Origin: an uncultured Phycisphaerae bacterium
GTDB lineage: Bacteria > Planctomycetota > Phycisphaerae > Sedimentisphaerales > Anaerohalosphaeraceae
Assembly (NCBI GenBank): GCA_937949545.1
Contig: CALEDR010000008.1
Span: 1-64,000 of the forward strand
Reading direction: 5' to 3'
Length of the DNA: 64,000 bases
Part shown: piece after piece, positions 22,111-22,776 of the stretch
Position numbering within the stretch: the first letter of the stretch is position 1
Layout: every line of letters begins with the position of its first letter
Made by a program: the position numbers and the translations under genes
The notes under the pieces: model-generated
What the model was told of the DNA's origin: nothing
The model's input: only the letters and a program-made list of their open reading frames with translations
Databases searched by the model: none

Positions 22111-22177
22111 AAAATATTTGATAAATATCTAACAACGGAAGGATAAAAAAGAGTGGGTCTGTAAGCCGAGTTCTGTT

Positions 22178-22272
22178 CCCCGCACCTGCTTGGAGTGCAG
22201 TCCGATTTTTTCCGCTGACAGATTGAAACACCCGCTGGCGAGACACGTCGGACACTCCAAGCAGGTGCGGGG
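22178..22272 (-). repeat. rnpB hairpin insert A (P19 position)
   Basis: A 95-base palindromic element between the 3' strand of P2 and the 3' strand of P4. Its arms CCCCGCACCTGCTTGGAGT and the exact complement pair over 19 bases, then after a three-base bulge over six more (GTCCGA with TCGGAC). It matches insert C with about seven differences, including the apical region. Confidence 0.9.
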
Positions 22273-22469
22273 CGGCGGTTATTACACTGGACCGATTGTT
22301 ACCAATCGGCTCTGTCTGAAGATTTCCCCTCAGACAAGCAACCTACCCGCCGGAATCGCCCGGGCCGGGCTCCGGCATACTTGGTTTTGCAGGCGGCGGG
22401 GTTTGCCGTGCCGCTGCCGTTGCCGACAGCGCGGTGCGCTCTTACCGCACCTTTTCACCATTGCCTGTT

Positions 22470-22562
22470 CCTCGCACCTGCCTGAAGAGCCGGACGAGAT
22501 CTGGCCTGGAAGGTTGAAATCGTCCAAAGCCAAAACCCTCTGTTCTTCAAGTAGGTGCGGGG
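22470..22562 (-). repeat. rnpB hairpin insert B (P12 position)
   Basis: A 93-base hairpin in place of P12. In RNA sense its left arm begins CCCCGCACCTACTTG, the same as insert C, and pairs 17 of 19 bases with its right arm. The apical half differs from A and C but keeps a shared TTTCAACCT motif. It appears to be a diverged copy of the same module. Confidence 0.8.
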
Positions 22563-22654
22563 CCATCGGCTGTGTGTTTTCTGTGGCACTTTCCCTCGGG
22601 TTGCCCCGGGCGGCCGTTAGCCGTCGCCGTGCCCTGTCCTGCTCGGACTTTCCT

Positions 22655-22749
22655 CCCCGCACCTGCTTGGAGTGCGGTCCGATTTTTTTCCGCTGACAGG
22701 TTGAAACACACGCTGCAAGACACGTCGGACACTCCAAGTAGGTGCGGGG
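22655..22749 (-). repeat. rnpB hairpin insert C (P3 position)
   Basis: A 95-base hairpin in place of P3, between the 5' strand of P2 and the P4 segment AGGAAAGTCCG. It is about 93 percent identical to insert A by hand alignment. One arm change (C to T on the plus strand) creates a single mismatch in the basal stem. Confidence 0.9.
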
Positions 22750-22776
22750 CAACCGCCCGACCCACTCTATACCTAT

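Follow-up and report, generated by a model that had tools for sequence, protein, structure and literature searches.

An RNase P RNA gene of an uncultured Phycisphaerae bacterium (GCA_937949545.1) raises an unusual question: three long hairpins with similar basal arms sit at three separate helices of one ribozyme, and they could be either parts of its machinery or passengers. We analysed the whole 64,000-nt stretch of contig CALEDR010000008.1 that holds the gene (the window), together with related genomes. Most likely the hairpins do no work in RNase P and are mobile-element remnants that it tolerates. Probably they are MITE-like members, without an open reading frame (ORF), of a family of mobile palindromic intervening sequences that bears a GIY-YIG nuclease gene.

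Three hairpin modules at peripheral helices of an RNase P RNA

A sequence-only reading of the locus had proposed an RNase P RNA with all core motifs and with extra hairpins of 95, 93 and 95 bases at P3, P12 and P19. The Rfam covariance model RF00010 bore out both points. The model aligned from end to end (1-367) with minus-strand positions 22768-22146, scoring 240 bits (E 7.9e-77, the gathering score being 100), and it placed the extra segments in the P3 loop, in the P12 helix and in the 3' region between P2 and P4 (Table 1). In other bacteria this 3' region is the location of P19. A genome-wide covariance search gave rnpB as the sole RF00010 match in the genome; in that search the match stopped at 22254 and not at 22146, an example of how RNase P gene finders may truncate insert-bearing genes. 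Since it is the only RF00010 match, has an intact core and is accompanied by rnpA in the same genome, this rnpB is probably the working gene. An RNase III gene is also encoded in the genome.

Table 1 The rnpB gene and its hairpin modules, in positions of the window
Feature	Position	Strand	Module ends	Remarks
rnpB (class A RNase P RNA) including its three hairpins	22146..22768	minus		RF00010 match; single copy in genome
P3 module, 95 nt	22655..22749	minus	CCCCGCACCTACTTGGAGTG ... CACTCCAAGCAGGTGCGGGG	fold z -6.1
P12 module, 93 nt, degenerate copy	22470..22562	minus	CCCCGCACCTACTTGAAGA ... TCTTCAGGCAGGTGCGAGG	fold z -4.1 (computed one base out of register)
P19 module, 95 nt	22178..22272	minus	CCCCGCACCTGCTTGGAGTG ... 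CACTCCAAGCAGGTGCGGGG	fold z -9.9; basal duplex ~25 bp

The further claim that one common module occupies all three helices held fully for P3 and P19, which are near-copies with 93% identity in their interiors and with arms of 20 bp each that are 95% and 100% complementary, respectively. For P12 it held in part. The P12 module is degenerate and has mainly its basal arms in common with the other two; its right arm reads GGCAGGTGCGAGG, with CTTGAAGA replacing CTTGGAGTG, and its interior shows 58-62% identity to those of the P3 and P19 modules, compared with a between-genome background of 47-49%. Each module folded alone was far more stable than shuffled sequences (z scores in Table 1), and all three formed as local hairpins when the full-length RNA was folded to minimum energy. 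Alignment of the modules from the window's own genome (G000) and from G003 and G004 revealed a TTTCAACC-like motif near the tip that was kept in nine of nine modules, even where the stem had diverged. The modules have complementary ends and occupy variable helix tips in a stable RNA, as do intervening sequences of the 23S type.

The same ends occur in rRNA genes and in intergenic DNA

The module ends occur beyond rnpB and are not specific to it. The 13-mer CCCGCACCTRCTT was found six times in the 2.84-Mb genome, five times in rnpB and once in 23S rRNA; its reversed-pattern control had 0 occurrences. In the 23S gene (contig C49), the arm bounds a 96-nt hairpin at Ec 540-550 in helix 25, a classical site of intervening sequences. 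This insert has an orthologue in G004, and G003 carries a different insert at the same place. The module was excluded as a dispersed repeat of its own genome outside stable RNAs, the arm being found elsewhere only in 23S. A second 23S gene binned with this genome (contig C2:10186-12931; L165) is 76% identical to that of C49 and probably lies on a misbinned contig.

Among other genomes, inserts with the same ends were found in the 16S rRNA of G012 and in 23S genes of several families at Ec 290, 545, 1167 and 2799, some of the ends being variants. Copies also lie in, or border, intergenic DNA, and G072 has a copy outside rnpB that is 95% identical to its rnpB module.

These insertion sites bear on the fate of the inserts in the RNA. 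They may stay in the mature molecule as longer P3, P12 and P19 helices, uncut by RNase III, which would be a sub-case of a mobile-element origin and to which we give a little less than an even chance. All three occupy the tips of variable peripheral helices, where changes in length are tolerated, and there is a precedent in the hairpin elements of fungal mitochondria, which stay in the transcripts of the genes that they enter (PMC2800124). The near-perfect long duplexes of the window's modules (~25 bp in P19) argue for cutting instead. So does the 23S insert of the same genome in helix 25, which is known to hold intervening sequences, since RNase III excises such 23S inserts in Coxiella and others (PMC4990558).

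The distribution of the ends also bears on where the hairpin arose. It could have been born in rnpB and have reached the other two helices without any mobile element, through duplication inside the gene and gene conversion; in line with this, rnpB is the sole place where the window's genome has the full 95-nt module, and the P3 and P19 copies are homogenised. Conversion accounts for this homogeneity, but not for spread across genes: the same ends occur in the genome's own 23S, in 16S and 23S of relatives, between genes and around GIY-YIG ORFs (see below), and the copy in G072 matches its rnpB module from outside that gene. We consider an intragenic origin improbable.

Modules turn over among relatives

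Genomes of the same genus bear the same module at the same positions, in line with the common-module claim, and they differ in which positions are filled. G003 and G004 have modules at P3, P12 and P19, G001 has two divergent modules at P3 and P12, and G002 has short ordinary loops with no rnpB insert. G003 and G004 are 99.0% identical in the rnpB core and 99.0% in 23S, and the rnpB core of the window's genome is 97-98% identical to theirs. The P12 module of G003 resembles its own P3 and P19 modules (0.78); that of G004 matches the P12 module of the window (0.86), and these two form a clade with a bootstrap of 100, the module tree otherwise being weakly supported owing to the short alignments. 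To judge from these similarities, replacement or conversion in the G003 line would explain its P3/P19-like P12 module.

We then consider the order as a whole, in which hairpins with CCCGCACC-type ends make up 48 modules in 26 of 123 parsed rnpB genes; G127 was left out of this census as a false positive (core sequence). Module-bearing genes have one to three modules each, at five or six sites overall: P19 (16), P3 (14), P12 (12), P8/9 (2) and J15/18 or P16/17 (4). Two site labels were corrected, 'P13-18' of G031 being P12 and 'J15/18' of G041 being, by its flanks, the P16/P17 region. Near relatives in the order differ in the presence or absence of rnpB modules, and most genomes have short P3, P12 and P19 loops. 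The arm sequence differs among genera yet stays complementary: the first 18 bp of the arms are paired in 81-100% of modules, against 42-94% when shuffled, with compensatory pair types at nearly all of these positions. Identity of module interiors had a median of 0.70 within genomes and 0.49 between genomes, and was also 0.49 for the same site between genomes.

The idea that the hairpins are a selfish or convertible element is thus well supported by the likeness of copies within a genome, by near relatives in which modules are missing or replaced site by site, with the P12 module of G003 turned P3/P19-like, and by ends that recur in genes of 23S and 16S rRNA, in intergenic DNA and on either side of GIY-YIG ORFs. 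The other idea raised from the sequence, a functional scaffold whose identical arms dock together or bind protein and whose modules are kept by selection, is very improbable: three copies with strongly kept base pairing and a tip motif common to nine modules of three genomes would suit it, but such pairing is expected of any tolerated helix-tip insert, the same ends are found in unrelated RNAs, and the modules are lacking in G002 and most of the order, represented by two divergent ones in G001 and otherwise combined in G012, G028 and G053.

The rnpB genes of G053, G159, G072 and G118 (L050, L277, L282, L283) likewise hold two or three modules apiece, and P8/9 or J15/18 is the site of some of these. 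Unrelated hairpin modules are also doubled in rnpB, with CCTGTCACTTGTTTT at P3 and P19 (G054, G050; L023, L049) and CCCCCTCTGCTTCTTGC at P3 and P12 (G057; L024). The AT-rich interior of the G026 and G019 modules is a dispersed repeat, probably a secondary insertion.

Module ends are shared with GIY-YIG nuclease elements

The 23S gene of G003 contains two inserts (Ec 290 and Ec 1868) with an ORF of ~90 aa that has a GIY-YIG domain, bounded by ends CCCCGCACCTATTTTTG and CCCGCACCTTTTTG. GIY-YIG ORFs between such ends matched PF01541 with E 8.6e-17 and 2.7e-15. A third insert, in helix 25 of the same 23S gene, has retained the outer ends, together with some of the sequence next to them on the inside, and is missing the ORF; it is apparently an ORF-less derivative by internal deletion. 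Overall, GCACCT-containing ends bound a GIY-YIG ORF in G003 (two), in G012 (a frameshifted 23S copy at Ec 290), in G178 (in 23S, between CCCAGCACCTATTTTA ends of near-identical type) and in G067 (between CCCCGCACCTTCC ends, outside RNA genes), and full-length inserts with such ends occur in 23S of the same genus and of other families. The terminal inverted repeats of the modules are of the CCCCGCACCT type, as on the ORF-bearing GIY-YIG inserts of G003, G012 and G067.

A class-wide search with the G003 protein yielded 11 matches at E 1e-14 or better, seven of them in 23S rRNA if G037, found in a separate search, is included. In family f4, the 23S GIY-YIG insert of G037 has ends GTCACTTGATTTA that agree at 12/13 positions with the ends GTCACTTGTTTTA of rnpB modules in G050 and G054, by sequence a second parallel between nuclease inserts and rnpB modules.

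At 93-95 nt, the modules of the window are too short for a GIY-YIG ORF and are hence non-autonomous derivatives at most. The best match to the G003-type nuclease in the window's genome has 39% identity (E 2.5e-8) and is no close copy, which places the donor outside that genome. None of the rnpB genes was seen to contain a full-length GIY-YIG element. Between the module interiors of the window and the nuclease elements there was no evident match, and it is ends of 10-17 nt that link the two.

GIY-YIG genes in general were rejected as the source. In the order, the majority of them are flanked differently, for example by TGTCATTCCCGCG palindromes, which leaves the subset with GCACC-type ends as the relevant one. 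A group I or II intron was likewise rejected: the inserts had no Rfam match, and neither the window nor the scanned rnpB and rRNA loci gave an intron family above the gathering score; a single group I match (L183) lies ~0.4 kb from a GIY-YIG ORF and inside no studied insert. Many other GIY-YIG genes of the order lie inside inverted TGTCATTCCCGCGAAAGCGGGAATCCA-type palindromes (L208, L195, L196, L201, L193, L188, L199), as if several end families travelled with small GIY-YIG genes.

A proposed course of insertion and its relation to known elements

The genomes themselves establish that the ends are shared and occur in several host RNAs, that forms with and without an ORF exist, that modules turn over and that copies within a genome are similar. 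These features would fit the following course. Full-length family members would have the gene of a small GIY-YIG endonuclease enclosed by inverted ends CCCCGCACCT..AGGTGCGGGG and would land in, or replace, peripheral helix tips of RNase P RNA, 23S and 16S, and also enter intergenic DNA. GIY-YIG cleavage may start the insertion or conversion, the enzyme then being the driver of mobility. Because the ends of an insert pair with each other, it would fold away as a hairpin of its own and restore the stem, and the host RNA core would survive. Copies within a genome would then re-insert or be homogenised, possibly by gene conversion. The odds are about even that RNase III cuts the long duplexes as it does in 23S intervening sequences, in which case the mature RNase P RNA would consist of up to four pieces held by base pairing. 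A broader picture combines a natural multi-piece RNase P, in which RNase III removes three mobile hairpins and the four pieces pair, with a class of palindromic mobile elements that has autonomous GIY-YIG and MITE-like members and survives preferentially in structured RNA genes; we put it forward tentatively, as somewhat less likely than not.

On the reading of the hairpins as tolerated mobile-element remnants, a kind of intervening sequence known from rRNA has repeatedly entered RNase P RNA, up to three per gene, and the RNA core shows no evident loss despite the inserts. One question that becomes testable is whether cells can operate an essential ribozyme that is in pieces. Another is how rRNA intervening sequences move, since a single genus holds forms with the ORF, with a deletion and without the ORF that have one set of ends in common.

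The intervening sequences of 23S rRNA (Salmonella, Leptospira, Coxiella; helices 25 and 45) are likewise sporadic helix-tip inserts whose complementary ends form a long stem (PMC4990558). The present family also hits their sites, at Ec 545 (helix 25) and Ec 1167 (helix 45 region), but it differs in having a catalytic RNase P RNA as host, with three inserts in a single gene, in one end sequence across RNAs and in an ORF of GIY-YIG and not S23 type. In CPR bacteria, one study describes rRNA inserts, mostly at stem-loop tops or bases, that have GIY-YIG ORFs and are neither group I nor group II introns, as in the present family; it concerns CPR rRNA only, without RNase P, and is not known to mention a common end sequence or ORF-less derivatives of one family (PMC11270868). 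Double-hairpin and other repetitive hairpin-forming elements of mitochondria are also mobile-looking palindromes of rRNA variable regions and intergenic DNA, but they are organellar and are retained in transcripts (PMC2800124). REP/RAYT palindromes, in which a GTAG-tagged short palindrome goes with a TnpA-REP transposase, look different in architecture from the present elements with their two distant arms. Rickettsia palindromic elements have, as here, dispersed into the genes of one bacterial lineage, but mainly into protein genes. In some cyanobacterial rnpB genes repeat DNA enlarges P12, also a peripheral RNase P helix, but with short tandem repeats in a single helix and not one palindrome at several. 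We know of no nuclease linked to the mitochondrial hairpin elements. GIY-YIG ORFs in non-intron rRNA inserts are thus known, and what is new is an intervening-sequence family with RNase P RNA among its hosts. This novelty is provisional, as the literature search, which found no report of such intervening sequences in RNase P RNA, was limited to open-access papers, with subscription papers and preprints outside its scope.

Elements in Acidobacteria and Desulfobacterota

An Acidobacteria MAG (JACQTF01) contains seven CCCCGCACCT..AGGTGCGGGG elements (L109, L110, L116, L120, L122, L124, L129), every one of which is flanked by direct repeats of 3-5 bp (TCA, TGA, CTCAG, TCAGA, CTGG), several coinciding with stop codons. 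At the RNA sites no clear target duplication was found, and the insert takes the place of the helix tip. A search at E 1e-5 found no GIY-YIG relatives in the Acidobacteria genome, nor in two of the three genomes of Desulfobacterota that hold ORF-less copies, and mobility in these must be explained differently. Several of the JACQTF01 elements lie exactly at the stop codon between neighbouring genes, which hints at stop-codon-adjacent insertion. In Desulfobacterales, an ORF-less element (L130:1878-1943) is centred in a CTGTCATTGCGA palindrome and so lies in the tip of another hairpin repeat.
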